A DNA stretch of 11,171 bases from a bacterium (GTDB lineage Bacteria > UBA9089 > CG2-30-40-21 > SBAY01), in NCBI GenBank assembly GCA_040757115.1, contig JBFLYA010000123.1, forward strand, positions 1-11,171. The letters run 5' to 3'. Shown here in pieces: positions 76 to 11,171 of this stretch. Both the position numbers and the translations under genes were made by a program. Each line of letters opens with the position of its first letter. Position 1 is the stretch's first letter. The notes under the pieces were generated by a model. That model was given only the letters and a program-made list of their open reading frames with translations. It searched no databases and was not told where the DNA came from.

Positions 76-348
76 GTAACCGTTCAGGCTATATATCAAA
101 AGTGTAAGAAAGGGGATAAGGAGATAAAAGTGATATGGAGATAAGATAATAGAAATAGATTGAAATTTATAGAAATAGGTAGAAATTGATTGTGGAAAAC
201 AACAAATTGGTCACTGGTCAATGGTCATTGACTAATGACTAATTTCTATAAATTTCTATTAGTTTCTATTAATTTCAATTTTTTTAATAATATCTCCCTA
301 TCTCCTTAATCTCCACATCTCCTTTTGTTACACCACCTGAACGCTTAC
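76..348 (+). mobile_element. Family A miniature inverted-repeat element, copy A1 (IS66-type ends)
   Basis: This 273-bp non-coding element has ends GTAACCGTTCAGG (76-88) and CCTGAACGCTTAC (336-348), which are inverted repeats with one mismatch. It is flanked by the exact 8-bp direct repeat ATAAAATT (68-75 and 349-356). The left half is purine-rich and the right half is an imperfect reverse complement of it, so transcribed RNA could fold into a long hairpin. A nearly identical copy lies inverted at 8830-9066; A1 differs by a 36-bp central insertion (209-244) and about two substitutions. GTAA ends with 8-bp duplications match what is known of IS66-family elements. No transposase is encoded, so movement would need a transposase from elsewhere. 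Confidence 0.9.
209..244 (+). repeat. 36-bp imperfect palindrome present only in copy A1
   Basis: The segment GGTCACTGGTCAATGGTCAT followed by TGACTAATGACTAATT is absent from copy A2, and its length equals the whole size difference between the copies (273 versus 237 bp). It is an imperfect palindrome centred near 224. An ATT is found at both junctions, compatible with a small insertion or a slippage deletion. It shares the 14-mer TCAATGGTCATTGA with the hairpin at 5082-5115. Confidence 0.7.
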
Positions 349-385
349 ATAAAATTGTCATAATTTAATAAGGAGGAGATATAAA

Positions 386-1312
386 ATGGAAAATGCAAAA
401 TGGAAAATGTTAGCGGTTATTATTCTTCTTGGTTATTCTTTAAATGTAGATGCCGCAATTTATAAAAAGGCAGGGACAACTGTTGGTCAGGTGTTAGAAT
501 TTGGTGTTGGAGCAAGGGCTTGTGCTATGGGTGAGGCATTTACCGGACTGGCAGATGATTTTAGCGCCTTCTACTGGAATCCCGCAGGTATTGCTCAAAT
601 TGAAGATTTAGAGTTTAATTTTATGCATAATGATTGGTTTCAAGGGATAAGATATGAACTTGTTTCCACTGTTTTACCATTAGAAGAAGAATTAGGAGCA
701 ATGGGCTTAAGTATCATCGTCTTAAAAGCAGATGACATCGTGGGGCGAGATACAAATGGAAATTTTACCTCAAATTTTGAAGCAAAAGACAGTGTTATGA
801 GCCTTAGCTTTGGTCAAAGATGGAATGACAAAATATTAATTGGGGCAACGATTAAAAGGATTAACCTGCATATAGAAAACGAAGGAGGGACACAGTTTGC
901 CTTTGATGCAGGTGGATTATATAAATTTCAGAATACTGATTTAACTCTCGGCGCAGTTGTCCAGAATATTGGTAAGAAGATAAAATTTATTGAAAAAGAG
1001 GAGCGATTACCTTTAAATTTCAAACTTGGCATTCTGTATAAGATGTTAGAAAAAAGAGTGTTACTAACATCAGATTTGAGTAAATCTATTGACCGTGCTC
1101 TAAAACTCAATCTGGGCACAGAAATAATTATTAATTCAATCACAAAATTCAGGTTTGGGTATAACTCAACTAATGATGCTGACAATGGTTTTACTGCGGG
1201 TATAGGACTTAAGATAAAAGATATAATTGAGTTAGATTATGCCTACATCCCTTATGGAGAACTTGGTGATTCTCAACGAATTTCGCTCACCACGAAATTT
1301 AAGGTTGAATAA
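386..1312 (+). CDS. PorV/PorQ (UPF0164) family outer-membrane beta-barrel protein
   Basis: A 308-residue secreted protein. The N-terminus is a Sec signal peptide with hydrophobic core 9-18 and a likely cleavage after VDA (residue 23). Residues 40-68 carry the family signature: GARACAMGEAF, then GLADD and YWNPAG. The rest alternates polar and hydrophobic residues like a FadL/PorV-type barrel and ends in an amphipathic strand. In Bacteroidota PorV belongs to type IX secretion, but the family is much wider and no other secretion gene is visible here, so the role is probably a general outer-membrane channel or export factor. The start is fixed by AGGAGGAG (371-378), seven bases upstream. It is first in a likely operon with the VanZ and ligase genes. 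Its leader is interrupted by element A1, which should lengthen the 5' UTR by about 280 nt and add strong structure. Confidence 0.85.
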   Translation: MENAKWKMLAVIILLGYSLNVDAAIYKKAGTTVGQVLEFGVGARACAMGEAFTGLADDFSAFYWNPAGIAQIEDLEFNFMHNDWFQGIRYELVSTVLPLEEELGAMGLSIIVLKADDIVGRDTNGNFTSNFEAKDSVMSLSFGQRWNDKILIGATIKRINLHIENEGGTQFAFDAGGLYKFQNTDLTLGAVVQNIGKKIKFIEKEERLPLNFKLGILYKMLEKRVLLTSDLSKSIDRALKLNLGTEIIINSITKFRFGYNSTNDADNGFTAGIGLKIKDIIELDYAYIPYGELGDSQRISLTTKFKVE

Positions 1313-1321
1313 TTTTTTAAT

Positions 1322-2206
1322 ATGAACCCGATACTTAAAAAAATTTTTCCATTGATTCTATTCGTTATATTTGTAATTTATCTCTTTTATGCAACCCTTT
1401 ACCCTTTTAATTTCTCTTTCCAGGAAGATAATATTCTTTATAATCTTAATAGGGTAAATATTATCCCTTTCAGTTGTTGGGGTGGCAGAGAAATTTCATG
1501 GTCGGATGTCGTCAGTAATCTTCTTCTTTTTATTCCCTATGGTTTCTTACTAAACTGGGAATTACAAAATAGAAACATTGGAAAACTTAAATCTAAATTA
1601 ATATGTATCATCTCTGCTTTTTTACTTAGTTCGACATTGGAATTTTTACAATTGTTTTCTTTGAGAAGAAGAACCGGAATGACGGATATTGTCAATAACA
1701 CGATTGGGAGTTGGATAGGTTGTGTTTTAAGTAATGATTTTTTAGTTTCTTTTAAAGATAAACTCTTTCATCAAATAAATCTACTCCGTCGTGAAAATCC
1801 TTTGCTTGTTTATTTAGGTTTATATAGTTTATTAATCATGCTTGTATTTATCTATCCCTTCGATATATCTATTGCGAGGGAGAATATATACTATGCGATT
1901 AAGAATTTTAACCTGACGCCTTTTTACTATCGGGGACATCTTAATATTTCTTTTAGTGAAAATGGGATTAATATAATTTTATTTATCATCTTTGGTTTTC
2001 TTGTTTATGTTTCATTTAGAAGATATTACTCGAAAATATTAACGCTATTTATCACCATATTCATAGGATTTTGTCTGGCAACTTTAATTGAATTTACTCA
2101 GATAATTATACCCAACAGAGTTCCAGATATAACTGATATTATTTTCTATATGATAGGAACTTTACTCGGCGACCTGCTCGCTTTTGTAACTTTATACAAA
2201 AAATAG
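1322..2206 (+). CDS. Tandem VanZ-domain membrane protein
   Basis: A 294-residue integral membrane protein containing two VanZ-like modules. Module one (about 5-137) shows LYPFNF, NIIPF, SNLLLFIPYGFLL, LEFLQLF and TDIVNNTIGSWIG. Module two (about 163-290) repeats the order with IYPFDI, NLTPF, NIILFIIFGFL, IEFTQIIIP and DITDIIFYMIGTLLG. VanZ was named from the teicoplanin-resistance cluster, but most family members have no proven activity, so resistance should not be assumed. The gene starts 9 bp after the porV-like stop without a clear Shine-Dalgarno sequence, which suggests translational coupling. The next gene begins 7 bp after its stop. The context of a barrel protein and a glycan ligase suggests an envelope role. 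Confidence 0.85.
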   Translation: MNPILKKIFPLILFVIFVIYLFYATLYPFNFSFQEDNILYNLNRVNIIPFSCWGGREISWSDVVSNLLLFIPYGFLLNWELQNRNIGKLKSKLICIISAFLLSSTLEFLQLFSLRRRTGMTDIVNNTIGSWIGCVLSNDFLVSFKDKLFHQINLLRRENPLLVYLGLYSLLIMLVFIYPFDISIARENIYYAIKNFNLTPFYYRGHLNISFSENGINIILFIIFGFLVYVSFRRYYSKILTLFITIFIGFCLATLIEFTQIIIPNRVPDITDIIFYMIGTLLGDLLAFVTLYKK

Positions 2207-2213
2207 GAAAATT

Positions 2214-3491
2214 ATGAAATATAAATCCACTTTCCTTTTAACTTTTGCTATTCTTTCAGGAATAATTATAGGCATTGCCATTTTATTTCGTCCTGATATA
2301 TATGTTCTTGCTGGTAGTTGTTTCGCCATAATCACTCTAATACTCATCTTTATTCGGCCATATTTTGGTATTATTATTTATTATGCGACTCTTTTTATGC
2401 TCCCGGAGGAATTAGCAGGAACTCCTGCTCCCTTGATAATATGTTTAATCACAACCTTATTTTGCCTTAAAGATGTTATTAAAACTCGAGGATATAAATT
2501 TGTCTTTGGGAAACAGAGTTATTTCCTATCAGGATTATGGTTAATGATGGTAGTATCCGTGGTTTTTGCCTACGAAAAAAGCCATTGTTGGAAACCATTA
2601 TTAAGTTTTAGTAAAACATTTATATTTTATTTCGTAACAATTAATCTTATAAGGACAAAGAAAGATTTTAAAATACTACTCTGGGCAATCGCAGTTATCT
2701 TTGGCATTTTAGCCTTAAAGTGTAATGTTCATTGTTTTCTATTTGGACCTGGACGCGTTGCCGGTGCTGGGGGTGATAATAATCATTTTGCCTTAGCGTT
2801 AATAATGGCATTACCTTTTAGTATTTATCTATTCTTTTCAGAAAATCTACTCCTTAAAAAACTCCTTTTAGGAATAATCTCATTGTGTATCATTGCAACG
2901 GTTATTCTTACTTTTTCAAGAGGTGGTTTTATTGGATTAATTGGGGTATTAAGTTTAATATTTTTAAAGGCAAGAACTAAGGCATTAGCTCTCTATGGAA
3001 TTGTATTTTTAGTTCTATTGTTCATAGTTTCAATACCTTCAGGATATATAGAAAGACTAAACACTATCTTAGAGTATCAGAAAGATGATTCTGCTATGGG
3101 AAGGATATACGCCTGGAGAGCAGGTGGACAGATGATATGGGAACGACCACTAATAGGAATAGGATTGGGTAATTTCGCTCCCTTAGCCCATACCTATGAT
3201 TCCCGATTAGATAAATCTATGGAGGCTCATAACTCATTTATCCATTTAGCGGGTGAGTGTGGTTTGATTTCATTATTACTCTTTATTATGTTAATATCTA
3301 CTTCGATGATAGATTCATATAGAATCAGAAGAAATATAGATGAAAGATTTTCTAAGATAACAGTTCCTGCTTGTAAAATAATAGAGGTAAGTCTTGGTGG
3401 ATATGTGTTAGCGGGTAGTTTTCTAAGTGAGGTAAATTTTGAGCTTGTTTATCTTTTATTTGCATTGAGTGTGATACTTAAACGATTGTAA
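2214..3491 (+). CDS. O-antigen ligase/polymerase-like membrane protein (Wzy/WaaL superfamily)
   Basis: A 425-residue protein with about ten to twelve hydrophobic segments. Superfamily features are GGDNNHFALALIMALPF (186-202), TFSRGGFIGL (233-242) with the conserved Arg in a membrane-proximal loop, the large extracytoplasmic loop with RIYAWRAG and RPLIGIGLGNF (297-321), and EAHNSFIHLAGECGLI (337-352). Such proteins transfer or polymerise lipid-linked glycans on the periplasmic face. The DNN and SRGG segments also recall exosortase-associated O-glycosylation ligases, but no exosortase gene is in view. A weak AGGAA precedes the ATG. The stop codon TAA lies inside the left end of the element at 3488-3913. 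Without that insertion the frame would read on through TTA TAC CAG AAC ACA to TAA, so the original protein was probably four residues longer. Confidence 0.85.
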   Translation: MKYKSTFLLTFAILSGIIIGIAILFRPDIYVLAGSCFAIITLILIFIRPYFGIIIYYATLFMLPEELAGTPAPLIICLITTLFCLKDVIKTRGYKFVFGKQSYFLSGLWLMMVVSVVFAYEKSHCWKPLLSFSKTFIFYFVTINLIRTKKDFKILLWAIAVIFGILALKCNVHCFLFGPGRVAGAGGDNNHFALALIMALPFSIYLFFSENLLLKKLLLGIISLCIIATVILTFSRGGFIGLIGVLSLIFLKARTKALALYGIVFLVLLFIVSIPSGYIERLNTILEYQKDDSAMGRIYAWRAGGQMIWERPLIGIGLGNFAPLAHTYDSRLDKSMEAHNSFIHLAGECGLISLLLFIMLISTSMIDSYRIRRNIDERFSKITVPACKIIEVSLGGYVLAGSFLSEVNFELVYLLFALSVILKRL

Positions 3492-3913
3492 GCGTTCAGC
3501 AGTCATCTATCAGTTGTCAACTGATGGCTGACCGCTGGGTGTATGTAAAATTTGTGGGTAAAAAATATTGAGGAATATTCATCTTTTTGCCGATATAAAG
3601 AAATAGATGAAATTCAATGCGAAAATTACAAATTCCAAGCACCAAATCTCAAATAAATTCCAAATTCCAATTTCCAAATAAGTTTCAAATTCCAAAGATT
3701 ATATGACAACGAGAGGAATTTATTTAGATTTCTCAATAATTGAAGAAAAAATCTTTTTCTTGTCTTGTTTGGAATTTTGAATTTTGGTCATTGAAATTTA
3801 TTTGTAATTTGGTATTTGTGATTTGGAATTTTGTGATTTTCAATTGATTTAACCGTTAATTCAGACGGGTAAATAGTTACCCATAAATTTTACACGCACC
3901 CCTGACCGCTTAC
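3488..3913 (+). mobile_element. Element D: nested inverted-repeat element with IS66-type ends
   Basis: A 426-bp non-coding element filling most of the gap after the ligase gene. The ends are GTAAGCGTTCAG (3488-3499) and CTGACCGCTTAC (3902-3913), flanked by the exact 8-bp repeat AAACGATT (3480-3487 and 3914-3921). Here the base after the right duplication is A, which shows that the duplication is 8 and not 9 bp. Inside are layered palindromes: a subterminal hairpin (3490-3536), a 25-bp inverted repeat with 22 matches (3537-3561 against 3877-3901), and a core of AAATTCC-rich arms (about 3614-3700 against 3765-3848) that are imperfect reverse complements. Apart from its ends it is unrelated to family A, suggesting that different palindromic cargo has been captured between the same transposon ends. 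Confidence 0.85.
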
Positions 3914-3968
3914 AAACGATTATACCAGAACACATAATATTCATCTCCCCTAATGTAGCGAAGGTCGA

Positions 3969-3987
3969 TATATTCCTCAAGAATATA
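3969..3987 (+). promoter_or_regulatory. Inverted repeat upstream of the secreted-protein gene
   Basis: TATATTC (3969-3975), a five-base spacer and GAATATA (3981-3987) form a perfect 7-bp inverted repeat about 60 bp before the start codon at 4046. It could be an operator, but the surroundings are A/T-rich and no convincing -35/-10 pair is visible, so the assignment is weak. The stretch 3922-4031 otherwise shows nothing recognisable. Confidence 0.25.
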
Positions 3988-4045
3988 AAAAGTTACAACG
4001 GGAAGATGTTTAAATATATCAAATTAAATACGAGGAGGTAGGAAG

Positions 4046-5062
4046 ATGAAAAAGAACACAATAAATATCTTAACAGCGTTGATAGTAAGTCTGTTTTTAA
4101 TTGGATTAACTATCACACCGTCAAATGCCACAGGGTGGCCAGATTTGAAAATAGCAAAGGTGAAAAGACCAGAAGGCGTAAATCAACCACTTCCACCACT
4201 GCCACCAGTGCCAACAAAGGTAGTGATGAGTGACCCAGATGGCGATTCACAATTAAGCGATATCTACGAGTGGGAAGTCATTCCGGGTATTGGAGTCCCC
4301 ACTGTAGATGTTGTTCAACTTGAGGCAGGGATAGGAATAAGTATGGGAAGTCCGGCGGTAACACTTCGACTCACATTTAACCAATGGACAGATATATCCA
4401 CAGTCATTGGATATATTGACCTTGATACAGACCAGGACCGGTACACAGGATGGGGTCCGTGGAAATATCCTGAAATTGGAGGAGGGTTTGAATATGCTCT
4501 AGACTTCTTTTCCCTTCCTACTGTTTCAATTTACGATATAAATTGGAACTTGATGGGAGAACTAACCGCGGTTCTGGGAACAGATACCATTGAAATTACT
4601 ATTCCATTAGGGATGCTTGGTAATGATGATGGGGTAATGGATTTAGAAATGATAGTGGGAAACTGGGATGCTCCAACAGATCTGGCGCCACCCTCAGATG
4701 CCTATAGCGCTCACTCAATACCAACAAACCCTGTGGTCAGAATGTTTAGTAACGATGAGGTGTATACAACTGGCGAGACACTGAATGCCGAGGTTAAGGT
4801 AGTTAATGACGGAGCTACAATGACGGTTGATGTCCACATTTATGCCCAGGGATTCCATCCCTCTCCACTATGGGGACAGGTTCCACTAGTTCTCATGGAT
4901 GATGTAGTTATTCCTGCAGGATTTAATCTGACCGTGCCGGTGATAAGTTACCCCATTACACCTGCTTCACCACAAGGTATTACAAAATTAGGAGCAAGAA
5001 TCTGTGACCCAACCACAGGTGATATTTTGAGTGATGGTTCTAAGTTAATCATTATCGAGTAG
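4046..5062 (+). CDS. Secreted two-domain beta-rich protein of unknown function
   Basis: A 338-residue exported protein that I cannot assign to a named family. A Sec signal peptide (hydrophobic 7-24) has a probable cleavage after SNA (residue 28). A proline-rich linker follows (48-57, QPLPPLPPVP). The first domain (about 60-225) contains SDPDGDS, the acidic run DLDTDQDRYTG (125-135), which resembles a calcium-binding loop, and GFEYALDFFS, ITIPLGMLGNDDG and PTDLAP; this looks like a DOMON- or CBM9-like beta sandwich, by inference only. The second domain (about 228-338) has NDEVYTTGETLNAEVKVVND, typical of an Ig-like surface fold. GAGGAGGT at 4032-4039 gives a strong ribosome-binding site. It appears to be a single-gene unit, with element D upstream and a hairpin downstream. 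Its G+C is visibly higher than in the adjoining genes. Confidence 0.75.
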   Translation: MKKNTINILTALIVSLFLIGLTITPSNATGWPDLKIAKVKRPEGVNQPLPPLPPVPTKVVMSDPDGDSQLSDIYEWEVIPGIGVPTVDVVQLEAGIGISMGSPAVTLRLTFNQWTDISTVIGYIDLDTDQDRYTGWGPWKYPEIGGGFEYALDFFSLPTVSIYDINWNLMGELTAVLGTDTIEITIPLGMLGNDDGVMDLEMIVGNWDAPTDLAPPSDAYSAHSIPTNPVVRMFSNDEVYTTGETLNAEVKVVNDGATMTVDVHIYAQGFHPSPLWGQVPLVLMDDVVIPAGFNLTVPVISYPITPASPQGITKLGARICDPTTGDILSDGSKLIIIE

Positions 5063-5081
5063 ATGACGAATTCTCTCTCGT

Positions 5082-5115
5082 CTGTTCAATGGTCATTGAA
5101 ATGACCATTGAACAG
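5082..5115. repeat. Perfect 16-bp-stem hairpin between convergent genes
   Basis: CTGTTCAATGGTCATT (5082-5097) is exactly reverse-complemented by AATGACCATTGAACAG (5100-5115) with only GA between. It lies 20 bp after the secreted-protein stop and 6 bp from the end of the 817-codon gene on the other strand, a position fit for a bidirectional terminator. There is no U-run on either side, so a classical intrinsic terminator is not supported. It shares a 14-mer with the 36-bp insert of copy A1, suggesting a dispersed palindromic repeat. Confidence 0.75.
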
Positions 5116-5120
5116 CGGGA

Positions 5121-7574
5121 TTAAAAATTCCCTTTAACTAACCCCTTAAATATCCCAAATTCTAATTGATATACCTTCAATAATTCCTCATCAGGAATAA
5201 TACTGTCAGATATACCCATTTTTGCGTCAGTAAATCTATCTGCAAAGGATAAAACCAGTAAAGTTCCAGTTCCTACTTTAACGCTCACACCAATTGTCTG
5301 ATTCTCCGGGGTAAAGAAAATAGGATTGCCACCTTCAATAATGGCTGAATTTACCTCTGATGGATAATACTTATTAAATGGTTGGGCATAGAGATGGGAT
5401 GAGTAGATGGATTGATTAATCTTTACGCCAAAGGCAGATAGAAGTGAATTAGCGGTAGAACTACCGTTAGACAGACTATCCAGGAGCAATATTTTTCCAC
5501 CAGAATGGAGATAATCTTTAATCCAGGATATATCCTTTGATGTAAACTTCTTTTTAGGTTTGATGATGACTACGACTTCAGGTTTTTCCTTTTTAATATC
5601 TTCGCAGACTATTGGAAAATACCCCAGTCGTAATACCCATTGATAAAACATCTCAAAACTACACTCGTTATCCTGGACAAACCCTTTGATTGGGAGATTA
5701 AGGTCAGAATGTTTTGACTCAAAACAAATCTGAATTGGCTTAGTGTGAGGTTTTGGCAATGGATAATTTAATTTATTCACGAAGGTAAAACCGACCATCC
5801 CTAAAGCCGTCATAAAGATTATCAGAGGCAAAGATTGAATATTGAATTTAGAAATAAATAGCCCAACGACGAATAATCCTATTCCTAAAATCAAGAATAA
5901 GTAGTTTAACCGGCTCAGAAAATTTTCTCTATTTAACCAATTTAGTGTGCCTAAGAGTAATTCAGGTTTGCCTGGAATAAATGCCGAGAAGTTAGAGAAG
6001 CAGGTTGAATCTGTAAACCCCACCACCCGACCCTTGCCATATTTTACCCCAATTGTTTGAATAAAAGTCCCAAAATCCATCTTCGTGCTATCTATAACCT
6101 GGGGATAAAAATTACTGCTTGAATAATCAATATCTAACGACTTTAAGCCAGAAGATAAAATGACATTTTCCCATAAATAATCTTTTGGCTCAACAGAACT
6201 GGAAGTGGCAAAGAGAAAACAAGGCATATTTTGAACGATAGGATGTGGTAGAAGTTTTGGAGGATAATATACTTGCTCGAATTTTTTCTCAATATCAAAT
6301 AGGCAATCATACCGAAAATAAAAACCAAATCTTTTTGCTATTGGATTAAGATAACAAGAAGAGCCAAAGACATTGGTATGTTCCCCTAATAAAAATAACC
6401 CACCACCAGCCTTAACAAATTCTACAATTGCCTCTATCTCCTTATCTAAAAACCTGGATGTAGGAATCTTCAAAACCAGAATATCATAATTACTTAATAA
6501 TTTAGATGTTATTGAACCCAAATTGCGGTCCACTTTATAATAATAACTCAAATAGTCTGTCATACAGTAATAATTATAACCTGATTCCTGTCCATACCAG
6601 GTTGTATCGTATTTTCTGGTGGTTTTTTCCCAATCGCTATGTGCCTCATCTATGAGAATTCTTCCTTGTCCGGGGATACCAGGGTCATGAAATCCAAAAT
6701 AACCAATGATAAATAACACCCCCAGACTGATTAAAACTAACCCTTTTATTTTTAAGGGGTTAAATGGTGGAGGTGTTATTTTAAGCTTAAAAAACCGACA
6801 TAATAAAAATAGATAAGGAATAAAACTAAGTGTAATGATTGTTGGATTCCAGAAGAGAAAAACCTTATCTGCTTCCTCTTCATCAGGCACAAAATACTCC
6901 AGATAAAGAAATATTAATATCATTAAGATATACCTGAATATGAGGTAAAGCACGGTGGTGATGGTAAAAAGTCCGGTGGTTATCCACAATCTTCTGGAGG
7001 TAGAAAAGAGCCGAAGTAATATTATCCCTCCAATTAAAAGATTTAAGGCAGGAAAAACGCCCAATTTATCCCAGGTGGTAGGGAATTCATAGAGTTTCCG
7101 CATTGTCTCAATAAAGATAGTATCTTGACTTAAACTCACCGGCAGGGTTAAAAATTTTAGTATCTGGTAAATTACAGGGGTGAAGGCAGGACATTGTTGC
7201 CATTTAGCCGTAAAACACATATAAGGATGCCCAATAACACTCTGGACACTCAAAAATCCCCCCACTAACCATAAACTACAAACTAATGGCGCCAATCTGC
7301 GAAAAGGAAGTAGTAAGAAACTTAAACCTAAAACTGCTGGACCTAAATTATAAGGGAAAGGCAATATAAGATAAGCAATTAATAATGGCAGGCAAAAAAA
7401 AGGGTAGCGTTTATCAATATTCTCAAGTTTTACCTGTCGCAAACCAAATAAAAGAAAAATAATGGCTAATCCAATTAAAATAAAAGTCCCAAAATAATTA
7501 GTTTTAATATAAAGGGATGAAGAGAAAAGCCAGGTTGTTGAAATTAAAATCATGCAAAACCAGATACCAAACAT
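5121..7574 (-). CDS. Large membrane protein with two GldG/DUF4350-like extracytoplasmic domains
   Basis: An 817-residue protein. Residues about 1-295 hold some eight hydrophobic segments. A soluble domain follows (about 303-552) with GRILIDEAHSDW, NYDILVLKIP, EFVKAGGGLFLLGEHTNVFG and KYGKGRVVGFTDS, a pattern seen in the DUF4350 and GldG/ABC-transporter-auxiliary (GATase-like) families. Two more membrane segments (about 556-600) lead to a second, shorter version of the same fold (about 612-780) with PEVVVIIKPKKKF, DYLHSGGKILLLDSLSNG and GTGTLLVLSFADRF. Such domains usually sense or scaffold envelope processes next to ABC transporters or MoxR/DUF58 genes, none of which are visible here, so the function is unknown. 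The start is supported by GGAGGT six bases upstream on the - strand (complement of 7581-7586). It is last in the - strand array, separated from birA by a repeat element. Confidence 0.75.
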   Translation of the reverse strand: MFGIWFCMILISTTWLFSSSLYIKTNYFGTFILIGLAIIFLLFGLRQVKLENIDKRYPFFCLPLLIAYLILPFPYNLGPAVLGLSFLLLPFRRLAPLVCSLWLVGGFLSVQSVIGHPYMCFTAKWQQCPAFTPVIYQILKFLTLPVSLSQDTIFIETMRKLYEFPTTWDKLGVFPALNLLIGGIILLRLFSTSRRLWITTGLFTITTVLYLIFRYILMILIFLYLEYFVPDEEEADKVFLFWNPTIITLSFIPYLFLLCRFFKLKITPPPFNPLKIKGLVLISLGVLFIIGYFGFHDPGIPGQGRILIDEAHSDWEKTTRKYDTTWYGQESGYNYYCMTDYLSYYYKVDRNLGSITSKLLSNYDILVLKIPTSRFLDKEIEAIVEFVKAGGGLFLLGEHTNVFGSSCYLNPIAKRFGFYFRYDCLFDIEKKFEQVYYPPKLLPHPIVQNMPCFLFATSSSVEPKDYLWENVILSSGLKSLDIDYSSSNFYPQVIDSTKMDFGTFIQTIGVKYGKGRVVGFTDSTCFSNFSAFIPGKPELLLGTLNWLNRENFLSRLNYLFLILGIGLFVVGLFISKFNIQSLPLIIFMTALGMVGFTFVNKLNYPLPKPHTKPIQICFESKHSDLNLPIKGFVQDNECSFEMFYQWVLRLGYFPIVCEDIKKEKPEVVVIIKPKKKFTSKDISWIKDYLHSGGKILLLDSLSNGSSTANSLLSAFGVKINQSIYSSHLYAQPFNKYYPSEVNSAIIEGGNPIFFTPENQTIGVSVKVGTGTLLVLSFADRFTDAKMGISDSIIPDEELLKVYQLEFGIFKGLVKGNF

Positions 7575-7597
7575 CTTTTTACCTCCACTGAACTGCT

Positions 7598-7803
7598 GTA
7601 ACTATTCACCGCAGAGACGCGGAGACACAGAGAAAAAATTAAAATCTATTGGCTATACGCTTAATTCCATTTCTAATAGACCTGGACCTAATGTCTTATG
7701 TATTTCAATTGCTGTACCAATAATTTTTTCTGTTATCTGATTTATTTCCATGTTTTCTCTGTTCCTCTGCGTCTCTGCGGTGAATTACTATCTGAACGGT
7801 TAC
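7598..7803 (-). mobile_element. Element E: inverted-repeat element carrying a GxxExxY relic
   Basis: The left end GTAACTATTCACCGCAGAG starts at 7598. The right end, read on the - strand from 7803, is GTAACCGTTCAG followed by a second GTAATTCACCGCAGAG. The CACCGCAGAGACGC arms (7608-7637 and about 7753-7782) are near-perfect inverted repeats. The outer right 12 bp are identical to the family A end at 76. No 8-bp duplication is present (GAACTGCT left, AATTTGAA right), so this insertion is older or has been rearranged. It lies between the birA stop and the ribosome-binding site of the 817-codon gene. Confidence 0.7.
7653..7751 (-). pseudogene. Truncated GxxExxY-family gene remnant
   Basis: Read on the - strand from the ATG at 7751, the 32 codons give [20 protein letters not shown] followed by [12 protein letters not shown] and a stop. 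The first 27 residues match the typical N-terminus of GxxExxY proteins (MEINxITEKIIGAAIEVHKxLGPGLLE), after which the family normally continues with a (S/A)xY motif and about 90 more residues. Here the frame leaves the family pattern directly after GLLE and stops, so most of the gene is deleted. The GxxExxY function is not established. The relic is framed by CCGCAGAGACGC arms, a pairing I recall as common around these genes in uncultured bacteria. Confidence 0.7.
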
Positions 7804-7821
7804 AATTTGAAAATGCTCTTA

Positions 7822-8592
7822 TCATACCATTACTTCTCCAGCGGTAATTATTTCTGTCTCTCCATTTTCTAATTCCACTAAAAGTCTTCCTTGTCCATCA
7901 ATTGACACCGCAGAGCCTTCTATTGATTTATCTGGTAATTGAACCGTTATGTGTCTGCCCACGATTGAGGATAACTGGTTGATTTCATTTAAAAAAGGAG
8001 CGAGATTTTGCACCTTCTTGAATTTAAGATAATCTTTTTCCATACCTTCCAATATCTTTGCTAAAATTTCTATTATCGGAATTTCTTTTCCCAATGCATC
8101 TTTGAGTGATGTTGCCTTTGATGGAAGTGTTTGAGAATCCACATTGACATTAATCCCTACCCCGATAATAATATATCTAACCGCAACTTCAACCGTTGAG
8201 CTTTCTGTCAATATTCCACCTACTTTTTTATTATTGAGATACAGGTCATTAGGCCATTTGATAAGGATATTCAGGTTAGTCATTTCTTTGATTGCCCGGG
8301 CAATACTCAAGGCAACTAAAATCGTCAATCCAGAGGCTTGATTTATGTTCATTAAGGTTGGTGTGAGGACCAAAGAAAACCACAAACCTCCTTTTGGGGA
8401 TATCCATGTTTTTGATGGTTGTCCTTTGCCTTCAGTCTGGATTTCGGCAATAACTAAAGTTCCTTCAGGTGCACCAAAAGCGGCTAATGAATGAGCAATA
8501 TCCTGAGTTGAACCCACCTCGTCAAATGTATGTATCTGCCGACCGAAAATTTTACTCACAAGATTTTCTTTAATCTCTTGTGCCTGCCACAT
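7822..8592 (-). CDS. birA: Biotin--[acetyl-CoA-carboxylase] ligase, monofunctional (no HTH)
   Basis: A 256-residue cytoplasmic enzyme that forms biotinyl-5'-AMP and transfers biotin to a lysine of the biotin carboxyl carrier protein. Catalytic-domain motifs are EVGSTQD (25-31), the biotin/ATP loop EGKGQPSKTW (54-63; most relatives have GRGRxGRxW), SPKGGLWFSL (65-74), IKWPNDLYLNNKKVGGILTE (111-130) and GVGINVN (144-150). The C-terminal domain (about 208-256) includes GQGRLLVELENGE. It lacks the N-terminal helix-turn-helix of E. coli BirA, so it should not act as a repressor. I chose the ATG at 8592 because GGAGCG lies upstream and family similarity starts there. A longer frame reaching 8697 adds 35 residues encoded by heptamer repeats and is unlikely to be translated. 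Confidence 0.9.
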   Translation of the reverse strand: MWQAQEIKENLVSKIFGRQIHTFDEVGSTQDIAHSLAAFGAPEGTLVIAEIQTEGKGQPSKTWISPKGGLWFSLVLTPTLMNINQASGLTILVALSIARAIKEMTNLNILIKWPNDLYLNNKKVGGILTESSTVEVAVRYIIIGVGINVNVDSQTLPSKATSLKDALGKEIPIIEILAKILEGMEKDYLKFKKVQNLAPFLNEINQLSSIVGRHITVQLPDKSIEGSAVSIDGQGRLLVELENGETEIITAGEVMV

Positions 8593-8605
8593 AAGTTTTC
8601 GCTCC

Positions 8606-8769
8606 TTTTCCCCTGAAAATAGGAAGTAGAAAGTAGAGAGTAGAAAGTAGAAAGTAAAGGAAACATCACTCCTCACGCCCATCTCCTTACCTCCCACCTT
8701 CTATCTCCTACCTACTATTTTCATCCTCATTTGTGAACCCACGGTTCATGAGCGTTTCCCCTGAAAATA
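8606..8769. repeat. Heptamer-repeat palindrome bounded by a 15-bp direct repeat
   Basis: TTTCCCCTGAAAATA occurs at 8607-8621 and again at 8755-8769. Between them lie five tandem 7-bp units of the type AGTAGAA (8625-8659) and then a pyrimidine-rich stretch (about 8680-8720, CATCTCCTTACCTCCCACC) with the same 7-bp rhythm in degenerate form. The two tracts are rough reverse complements, so the whole is an imperfect palindrome. A small hairpin GAACC-CAC-GGTTC (about 8735-8747) follows. This lies directly in the birA leader and probably separates the gene from its original upstream sequence. Confidence 0.6.
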
Positions 8770-8770
8770 C

Positions 8771-8801
8771 ATTCGCAGATTTCGCAGATTACACAGATTT
8801 T
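8771..8801. repeat. Short dispersed repeat (CGCAGATT type)
   Basis: CGCAGATTTCGCAGATTAC (8775-8793) contains two tandem CGCAGATT units and then ACACAGATTTT, of a kind I recall seeing dispersed in genomes of uncultured bacteria. Its right end is the 8-bp target duplication CAGATTTT (8794-8801) of element B1; the sequence resumes with a second CAGATTTT at 9156-9163. Confidence 0.5.
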
Positions 8802-9155
8802 AGAACGGTTCACTTTTGTTTGAAATCTTGTAAGCGTTCAGGTGGTGTAACAAAAGGAGATGTGGAGATTAAGGAGATAGGGAGATATTATTAAAAAAAT
8901 TGAAATTAATAGAAACTAATAGAAATTTATGGAAATTTGTTGTTTTCCACAATCAATTTCTACCTATTTCTATAAATTTCAATCTATTTCTATTATCTTA
9001 TCTCCATATCACTCTTATCTCCTTATCCCCTTTCTTACACTTTTGATATATAGCCTGAACGGTTACGAAATCTTGTGGTTAGAAAATGGACTGTGAATGT
9101 TTACAAATGTATATCCGAAACAAATCATAGGGAAAACGATAAAATGAACCGTCCC
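8802..9155 (-). mobile_element. Family B element, copy B1, interrupted by element A2
   Basis: The ends are AGAACGGTTCAC (8802-8813) and GAACCGTCCC (9146-9155), flanked by the exact 8-bp repeat CAGATTTT (8794-8801 and 9156-9163). Taking out A2 and one of its duplications leaves about 109 bp. B1 is inverted relative to copy B2 (9860-9994): its left 29 bp match the reverse complement of 9966-9994 at 26 positions, and its right end matches the reverse complement of 9860-9896 with about three mismatches. No coding capacity is visible. Confidence 0.8.
8830..9066 (-). mobile_element. Family A miniature inverted-repeat element, copy A2 (nested in B1)
   Basis: This is the reverse complement of A1, 237 bp long and lacking A1's 36-bp central insert. 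I count about two substitutions against A1. The ends are GTAAGCGTTCAGG (8830-8842) and CCTGAACGGTTAC (9054-9066), flanked by the exact 8-bp repeat GAAATCTT (8822-8829 and 9067-9074). The uninterrupted sequence can be seen in copy B2, where CAAGCTTTCAAAC (9966-9978) corresponds to the pre-insertion CAAGATTTCAAAC. This gives an internal empty-site control for the insertion. Confidence 0.92.
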
Positions 9156-9804: not shown

Positions 9805-9859
9805 AGTTGTAATGTAACTATTCAGCCACAGATGGACACGGATGAAACACTGAAAATTC

Positions 9860-9994
9860 GGGACGGTTCCTTTTATCGTTTTTCCTATGATTTTTGTTGG
9901 AAATTGGAAATTAGAAATTGGGCTTTTGTCTCTCTCCCTAATTTCCAATTTCTAATTTCAATCCGCAAGCTTTCAAACAAAAGTGAACCGTCCC
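9860..9994 (+). mobile_element. Family B element, copy B2 (nested in element C)
   Basis: This 135-bp non-coding element has ends GGGACGGTTC (9860-9869) and GAACCGTCCC (9985-9994), perfect 10-bp inverted repeats. The flanks GAAAATTC (9852-9859) and TAAAATTC (9995-10002) agree at seven of eight bases, consistent with an 8-bp target duplication. The centre has a palindrome of GGAAATTGGAAATTAGAAAT (from about 9899) and its approximate reverse complement ending near 9960, which is absent from B1. Confidence 0.75.
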
Positions 9995-10047
9995 TAAAAT
10001 TCGTAATCCGTGTCCGTAATTAGGCTAAAGGTTTTTCCGCCTGTTGT

Positions 10048-10089
10048 CCTCTGCCTTCTGCCCTCTGCCCTCTGCCTTCTGCCCTCTGT
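10048..10089. repeat. Six tandem 7-bp repeats (CYTCTGC)
   Basis: Six contiguous units, CCTCTGC, CTTCTGC, CCTCTGC, CCTCTGC, CTTCTGC and CCTCTGT, run without interruption. Short heptamer arrays of this kind resemble the STRR-type repeats described in cyanobacteria. This one lies inside element C, and a second heptamer array of different sequence is at 8625-8659. Confidence 0.85.
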
Positions 10090-10100
10090 ATTTATCCGTG

Positions 10101-10790
10101 CTAATCCGTGTTAATCAGTGGCTGAATAGTTACGACTAAAGTAAATATTTTATCCACTTCTTCTAAACTATTTACGACCAAATCGGCACAAGAGAAATCC
10201 AGTCCTTGAGTAAACTGGTTTGGAACAGCGATACATTTCATTTTAGCCGCTTTTGCTGACATTACACCTGTTAGTGCATCTTCTAACACCAGGCACTCTT
10301 GCGGACTAATGTTTAATTTTTCTGCGGCTAATAAGTAAATATCAGGATTTGGCTTACCGTATTTGACCTCTTCTCCAGAAACAATTACTTCAAACTGCTC
10401 AACGATGCCTAATTTATTAACAATCAATTCAATAAATCGTCTTTTGGAAGATGAGGCAATGGCTTTCCTTATTCCGATTTCATTTAATAGATGAAGGAGC
10501 TTAAAAAATCCAGGCATAGGTTTTATATTTTGTGCCAGAAGTCTTGTATAAATCTCTTCTCGCTCTTCTAAAAGCTTTATTGCTGGTTCCTCCAATTCAA
10601 GTTCTTCTTTGAATATCGTTAAACTTTCAATCGGGAGTCTTCCCATCAATTTTTGTTTAAGCGGTAGGGTAAAGCATTTACCTCTTTTTGCGGCTACCTG
10701 TTTCATTGCCTCAGAATATAAAGGCTCGGTATCAACCATTAGCCCATCCATATCAAAAATAACGGCTTTAATGGAGTAGTTTCTTTTCAT
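10101..10790 (-). CDS. HAD-superfamily hydrolase, beta-phosphoglucomutase-like (subfamily IA)
   Basis: A 229-residue cytoplasmic protein. Motif I is IFDMDGLMVDTEPLY (11-25) with nucleophile Asp13 and acid/base Asp15. The cap domain spans about 25-90. Motif II is ASSSKRR (112-118), motif III is Lys146 in GKPNPDIY and motif IV is LVLEDALTGV (167-176) with Glu170 and Asp171. Relatives include beta-phosphoglucomutases and small sugar-phosphate phosphatases; the substrate cannot be told from sequence. AGGG lies seven bases before the start on the - strand. The last ten residues (VTIQPLINTD, 220-229) and the stop are encoded entirely by the end of element C, entered at 10133 in codon phase, so the native C-terminus has been replaced. 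The catalytic domain is complete before that point, so activity is probably retained. Confidence 0.88.
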   Translation of the reverse strand: MKRNYSIKAVIFDMDGLMVDTEPLYSEAMKQVAAKRGKCFTLPLKQKLMGRLPIESLTIFKEELELEEPAIKLLEEREEIYTRLLAQNIKPMPGFFKLLHLLNEIGIRKAIASSSKRRFIELIVNKLGIVEQFEVIVSGEEVKYGKPNPDIYLLAAEKLNISPQECLVLEDALTGVMSAKAAKMKCIAVPNQFTQGLDFSCADLVVNSLEEVDKIFTLVVTIQPLINTD

Positions 10791-10819: not shown

Positions 10820-10916
10820 GTAAGCGTTCAGCCACAGAGGCACAGAGTTCACAGAGAATTAAGGAAATTAACCACAAATGCACACGAATTAACCTCTGAC
10901 ATCCCATAAATGTAGT
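10820..10916 (+). mobile_element. Left part of a further GTAAGCGTTCAG-ended element (F)
   Basis: GTAAGCGTTCAGCCACAGAG (10820-10839) repeats the element-end sequence of families A, C and D, 30 bp upstream of the HAD start at 10790. It continues as short repeats of the CACAGAG and CACGAATTAACC types. No matching right end or second copy of the flank CACCATTT is found before the window ends, so the element is either incomplete or runs past the window. The boundary with the next repeat is arbitrary. Confidence 0.55.
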
Positions 10917-11171
10917 GCGAACCTTATTGCTTTTTCATAAATAGGTTCCTCTTTTGGGGAGAGCGATAGCAAGAAGAACTTTAATGTAAATATCAAAATG
11001 CAAATATCAAAATTACAATGCAAAATGCAAAAATACTTGTAAATTAACAAAGTAGCTGGAGAATATTTTGATTTTTGATTTGTAATTTTACATTTTGATG
11101 TTTGATTTTTAATTTATTTTATGGTATTCCAGAAAAGTGGAAGTTAATTTTGCAAAAACCATTAGGTTCGC
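10917..11171. repeat. Palindromic repeat G at the right edge
   Basis: GCGAACCTTATTGCTTTTTC (10917-10936) is matched at 16 of 20 positions by the reverse complement of the last 20 bases (11152-11171). A further GAACCT/AGGTTC pair lies at 10919 and 10943. The interior has A-rich arms (about 10985-11035, units such as CAAAATGCAAATATC) facing T-rich arms (about 11070-11115). This is probably another palindromic unit nested in F; its true end may lie beyond the window. No gene is visible here. Confidence 0.55.

Follow-up and report, generated by a model that had tools for sequence, protein, structure and literature searches.

What moves the short palindromic elements that recur along this 11,171-nucleotide stretch of bacterial DNA (hereafter the window)? 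An earlier note had taken them for non-autonomous elements that depend for their movement on an IS66 transposase encoded at another site. Our analysis supports that reading: judging from sequence comparisons, the elements are very probably (we estimate about 0.9) MITEs mobilised in trans by single-ORF IS66-family transposases, those of the ISBst12 type. Their inverted ends come in two main forms, a type-1 end, GTAA(C/G)CGTTCAG (GTAASCGTTCAG), and a type-2 end, GTAAYTATTCAS.

Three insertions in the window are flanked by exact 8-bp repeats, and both the coordinates and the repeats previously reported for them proved correct. Two of these belong to one family, family A: a 273-bp MITE at 76–348 (+ strand; type-1 ends GTAACCGTTCAG and GTAAGCGTTCAG), with duplications ATAAAATT at 68–75 and 349–356, and a 237-bp MITE at 8830–9066 (– strand; hairpin z –8.0), with duplications GAAATCTT at 8822–8829 and 9067–9074. 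The element at 76–348 differs from its relative by two substitutions and, close to the hairpin tip, an additional heptamer-like insert of 36 bp. The third insertion, a 426-bp MITE at 3488–3913 (+ strand; ends GTAAGCGTTCAG and GTAAGCGGTCAG), lies between duplications AAACGATT at 3480–3487 and 3914–3921 and folds as a single hairpin (z –9.0); its right terminus is the variant GTAAGCGGTCAG, and its right side also holds an inner type-2-like end, GTAACTATTTA. Reading the sequence directly, we found that the GTAA terminus of this element supplies the TAA stop codon (3489–3491, + strand) of the ORF at 2214–3491, which is thereby four codons shorter than at the empty site, where the frame continues to its own stop.

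The elements beginning at 7598, 9814 and 10820 share these ends without being duplicated at their flanks, again as reported. An older MITE with CCGCAGAGACGCGG arms at 7598–7803 (+ strand) combines a type-2 end (GTAACTATTCAC) with a type-1 end (GTAACCGTTCAG), and the MITE at 9814–10133 (+ strand) has type-2 ends, GTAACTATTCAG, on both sides, with 30-bp arms that are 90% complementary. Only the left part of the type-1 MITE at 10820–11171 (+ strand; CCACAGAGGCACAGAG arms) is present, as it runs off the end of the contig. The window also contains heptamer-like tandem arrays at 8615–8650, 10045–10090 and 212–247 (AAGTAGA, CTCTGCC and TTGGTCA units), one of them near the hairpin tip of the 76–348 MITE and one within the 9814 MITE; the lengths of the first two are not the same here as in the genome of a congener, G001.

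We compared the window with its orthologous contig in G001 (G001:C110), which is 95–97% identical across most of the window from about position 1313 onward; the empty-site tests rest on this contig, and random stretches of the two genomes overlapped little. Exact empty sites were present for both 3488–3913 (ACTTAAACGATTATACC; the joined flanks match at 58/60 positions) and 8830–9066 (TTGAAATCTTGCGG), each with the duplicated octamer in single copy. The MITEs at 7598 and 9814 occur in both genomes and are therefore older. The congener also carries a complete, 229-bp homologue of the 10820 element (G001:C110:9778–10006), flanked by CACCATTT and CACCCTTT, which match at seven of eight positions. 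Near the start of the G001 contig (about 70–316; L106) lies a MITE with CCGCAGAG arms and a damaged far end, whose site is empty in the window (1312/1313).

The earlier note had proposed collecting further copies with their flanks. To gauge whether the repeats could be a chance effect, we paired adjacent inward-facing ends in 726 kb of stretches sampled from the same genome and compared their flanks. Among 58 pairs of strict ends, 24 had an exact 8-bp repeat, versus 0.48 with reshuffled flanks; repeats of 4–7 bp gave one or two cases, and those of 9–12 bp gave none. Extending the set with looser ends and 774 kb of the congener (1.5 Mb in total, two genomes) yielded exact 8-bp repeats at 70 of 307 pairs, falling into 21 sequence clusters, so that dozens of duplicated copies were found in the sampled stretches. 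Many end pairs lack a duplication, and many of these are old, recombined or mispaired. AT content of the duplications is 73%, and their second and seventh positions favour A and T, respectively. Genes are avoided: of 64 insertions with exact duplications, only 7 lie in an ORF of at least 120 aa, compared with 485 of 600 random points. One MITE is itself nested in another (L118:14102–15097; outer duplication TATTTCTT; inner element 14397–14883, duplication AATATTTG).

The elements are numerous. The type-1 end occurs 627 times in the 4.3-Mb genome that contains the window (reversed control, 1) and the type-2 end 417 times (control, 3); more than 1,000 strict ends in one genome implies on the order of five hundred elements. 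Elsewhere, type-1 ends number 619 in G001, 468 in G008 and 144 in G005, and 0–2 in genomes of other phyla. The MITEs are mostly 150–550 bp long, with inverted ends and hairpin z scores of about –8 to –9, the hairpin taking up nearly the entire element. Closed elements shorter than 700 bp make up 3.4% of the sampled sequence, a lower bound because unpaired ends were left out. Of the 237-bp family, at least 20 copies at different places in the genome are identical to the letter, which likely reflects a recent amplification. Many contig ends hold halves of this family, which together with the identical copies indicates that it has broken the assembly. We had considered whether type-1-ended stumps at contig ends were a hidden IS; these proved to be MITEs, of family A and of other kinds.

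A search of the genome for a full-length IS66 element with matching ends, as the earlier note had proposed, led to contig C277. Profile searches with PF03050 identified one nearly complete IS66 transposase gene in this genome, within a 1,563-bp element (G000:C277:3061–4623) whose single ORF spans the element and is broken by two in-frame stops, TAA and TAG. The read-through protein matches the NCBIfam IS66 model NF033517 at 287.6 bits (cut-off 180) and PF03050 at 138 bits, and the element is of the ISBst12 type of the IS66 family. It carries GTAACCGTTCAG at both ends (termini GTAACCGTTCAGGTATAGC and GTAACCGTTCAGGTAGGTAGG), which favours mobilisation of the MITEs by an IS66 transposase encoded elsewhere in the same genome. 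A MITE at C61:17213–17465, flanked by the exact duplication CAGAAAAG, shares most of the first ~30 bp of the left end of the C277 element. No target duplication was seen around the three near-complete IS66 copies of the phylum (C277, L059 and L064).

Type-2 ends are found on a second IS66 branch: GTAACTATTCAG ends bound a degraded element in G014 and the IS66 copies L064 and L013. In the window's own genome, copies of this branch are only partly assembled, at contig ends, with fragments in about a dozen contigs, including C130, C21, C325, C133, C40, C280 and C172. Several fragments stop ~126 bp from the contig end, giving them the look of a collapsed multi-copy element. Among the exact-duplication MITEs, 52 pair type 1 with type 1, 10 pair type 2 with type 2, 8 include a minor variant, and none pairs type 1 with type 2. 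This absence of mixing is what would be expected if two transposases each demanded a matching pair of ends.

Related ends also occur on IS66 elements farther afield. An intact 468-aa IS66 relative in G004, elsewhere in the same phylum, has GTAACCGTTCAC ends, which are also recorded for the IS66 copy L059. A scan of named genomes, in which the end search needed only inverted ends starting with GT and did not require the motif, found GTAACCGTTCAC-type ends on many IS66 relatives in other phyla; further relatives have GTAACCGTTCACGG ends (14/14 matching). Four relatives, from Singulisphaera, Thermoanaerobaculia, Omnitrophota and Desulfosarcina widdelii, are flanked by exact 8-bp duplications (ATCCATTT at L151, AATTCTTT at L153, TGAACTAC at L147 and, in D. 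widdelii, AAAGATAC at L165). A documented transposition event of ISDge4, a member of the ISBst12 group, involved TIRs GTGACTACTCAGCA and GTAACTGCTCAGCA and an 8-bp repeat (PMC12898284). A classic 522-aa IS66 in G005 (L075) has none of the MITE-type ends, indicating that these ends belong to one branch of IS66.

In the mechanism we propose, the transposase would recognise terminal repeats of ~12 bp (GTAA, three variable bases, TTCA and then G or C) and, on inserting the element, duplicate 8 bp of target, with a preference for AT-rich sites between genes whose octamer has A second and T seventh. Two or more IS66 lineages would be active side by side, one on type-1 ends, with the broken C277 element as its relative, and one on type-2 ends, with multi-copy remnants on C130, C21, C325, C133 and other contigs. 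New families would arise when a palindromic core lands between two compatible IS66 ends, and transposition is presumably replicative. That these particular IS66 transposases did the moving we infer from the ends they share with the MITEs.

We weighed two other accounts of how the elements spread. A mobiliser from another family that also makes 8-bp duplications might have converged on GTAA..TTCA ends, leaving the C277 element a coincidence. Consistent with this, no intact type-1 transposase is assembled in the window's genome, G001 or G008, and the latter two, with hundreds of type-1 ends each, have no C277-like IS66 protein beyond a short weak match. Against it stand IS66 elements that bear these ends and occur not only in the same genome but also in other genera of its phylum and in several further phyla, several being flanked by 8-bp duplications, and the correspondence of two end types to two IS66 lineages. 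Moreover, no transposase of another family, the kind of autonomous partner that would have spoken against IS66, was recognised between the longer end pairs of the 1.5 Mb among the matches listed, which included ordinary host genes only. We therefore judge such a mobiliser very improbable. Even less credible is the idea that the elements are immobile, old, REP/ERIC-like intergenic hairpins spread by such means as gene conversion or recombination, their duplications being fortuitous. Their intergenic location, strong hairpins and many copies without duplications would fit it, but exact 8-bp duplications are 50-fold above chance and enriched at no other length, the congener has exact empty sites, and 20 identical copies occupy different places. 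For exact-duplication copies this account is refuted; for degraded copies it may hold. Movement in trans by IS66 transposases thus remains our preferred explanation.

How the MITEs acquired their interiors is a separate matter. These interiors are palindromic and unrelated between families, and what the MITEs share with IS66 elements is the ends plus 10–30 subterminal bases; with no interior in common, they are not simple deletion derivatives of IS66. We nonetheless considered that each family might be a plain internal deletion of a full IS66 copy, with no exchange of cargo. Families A and D do retain a TATA-bearing end opposite a GGTGG/GGTAGG end, as does the C277 element (GGTATAGC left, GGTAGGTAGG right). 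The unlike interiors make this reading improbable, as do arms that recur with different ends. In two sampled genomes, CCGCAGAG arms adjoin type-1 (29), type-2 (13) and CTG (9) ends, and in G006 yet other ends; CCACAGATG arms have type-2 ends in the window's genome and type-1 ends in G008. Some ends are also stacked: in the C61 element (L016:1501–1753), a relic type-2 end is preceded, 17 nt farther out, by an IS66 type-1 left end, and it is this outer end that the exact duplication borders. Stacked ends also occur in the GTAATCCTTTA subfamily. Overall, stacking was seen at 13 of 282 type-1 ends, a count dominated by one subfamily, versus 0.8% of random 38-mers.

The same arms with different ends, together with the stacked end of the C61 element, indicate that cores and ends have recombined. 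The suggestion of repeated cargo capture thus stands in part: arms shared by different end types and a few stacked ends speak for exchange, but we saw no captured host gene inside the elements. Most arm copies in the two samples adjoin an end and arms are rare elsewhere, so that, with no host genes seen either, the data do not demonstrate capture of cargo as the term is usually understood. The same placement weakens the possibility, which we also considered, that the arms are independent repeats of the genome acquired fortuitously. So does the distribution of the junction of end and arm: among 17 genomes to which IS66 relatives elsewhere led us, only one, from Omnitrophota, has it, with two matches. 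We tentatively suggest, as one possibility, that the elements are modular, with palindromic cores passing between IS66 lineages when a new end is added outside the old one or replaces it; this rests on the C61 stacked end, the mixed ends of the 7598–7803 MITE and the finding that three or more end types accompany CCGCAGAG arms. If so, one core would be serially adopted by successive transposases, and the swarm would outlive each parent.

The window elements share with the ISBst12 group (ISDge4 and ISBst12) ends starting GTAAC..(T/C)TCA and 8-bp direct repeats. Members of that group encode a single-ORF PF03050 transposase, as the C277 element does, whereas the window elements are hairpins of 150–500 bp that lack a transposase gene, and what they have in common with it is limited to the ends and a few bases just inside them. 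In being short, non-coding, mostly intergenic, flanked by TIRs and present in many copies, they resemble MITECca01 of Cardinium, Chunjie of Geobacter uraniireducens, Correia and ERIC. MITECca01 has 169 copies, covers 3.5% of its chromosome and has a known IS parent, IS982; an IS parent is what we propose for the window elements too. Unlike those elements, the present MITEs have IS66 as their proposed parent and comprise, within one genus, 21 clusters with two end types, with more than 1,000 strict ends in one genome. In Pseudomonas syringae, MITEPsy1, for which movement in trans has been demonstrated, likewise has ends almost identical to those of an IS, but makes a 4-bp duplication and has a likely IS5-type parent (ISPsy2). 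In kind, then, these are ordinary MITEs; it is their number that is unusual. IS66 goes unmentioned in a 2024 review of prokaryotic MITEs, and an IS66 parent for MITEs is unreported in the literature we searched, with most subscription journals outside its scope. Through the ISBst12 group, IS66 would join the parent families of bacterial MITEs, and such elements account for much of the repetitive sequence between genes, and for many of the contig breaks, in genomes of an uncultured phylum. Offering hundreds of substrates with two end types, along with target sites marked by exact duplications, they also serve as a natural experiment on the requirements of an ISBst12-type transposase.

Other palindromic repeats accompany these MITEs. 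One, of 128–152 bp with GGGACGGTTC ends, lies inside the 9814 MITE at about 9860–9994, and the G001 homologue of that MITE lacks this insert. Further copies lie at L020:1801–1952, L036:3274–3401 and L046:1580–1707, and the four copies compared have no consistent target duplication. G006 contains CCGCAGAGACGCAGAG palindromes (L200–L207) with GTAACAGTTCAGCTAA ends or with flanks that are not of the GTAA type, possibly reflecting a third end type or another mobiliser.
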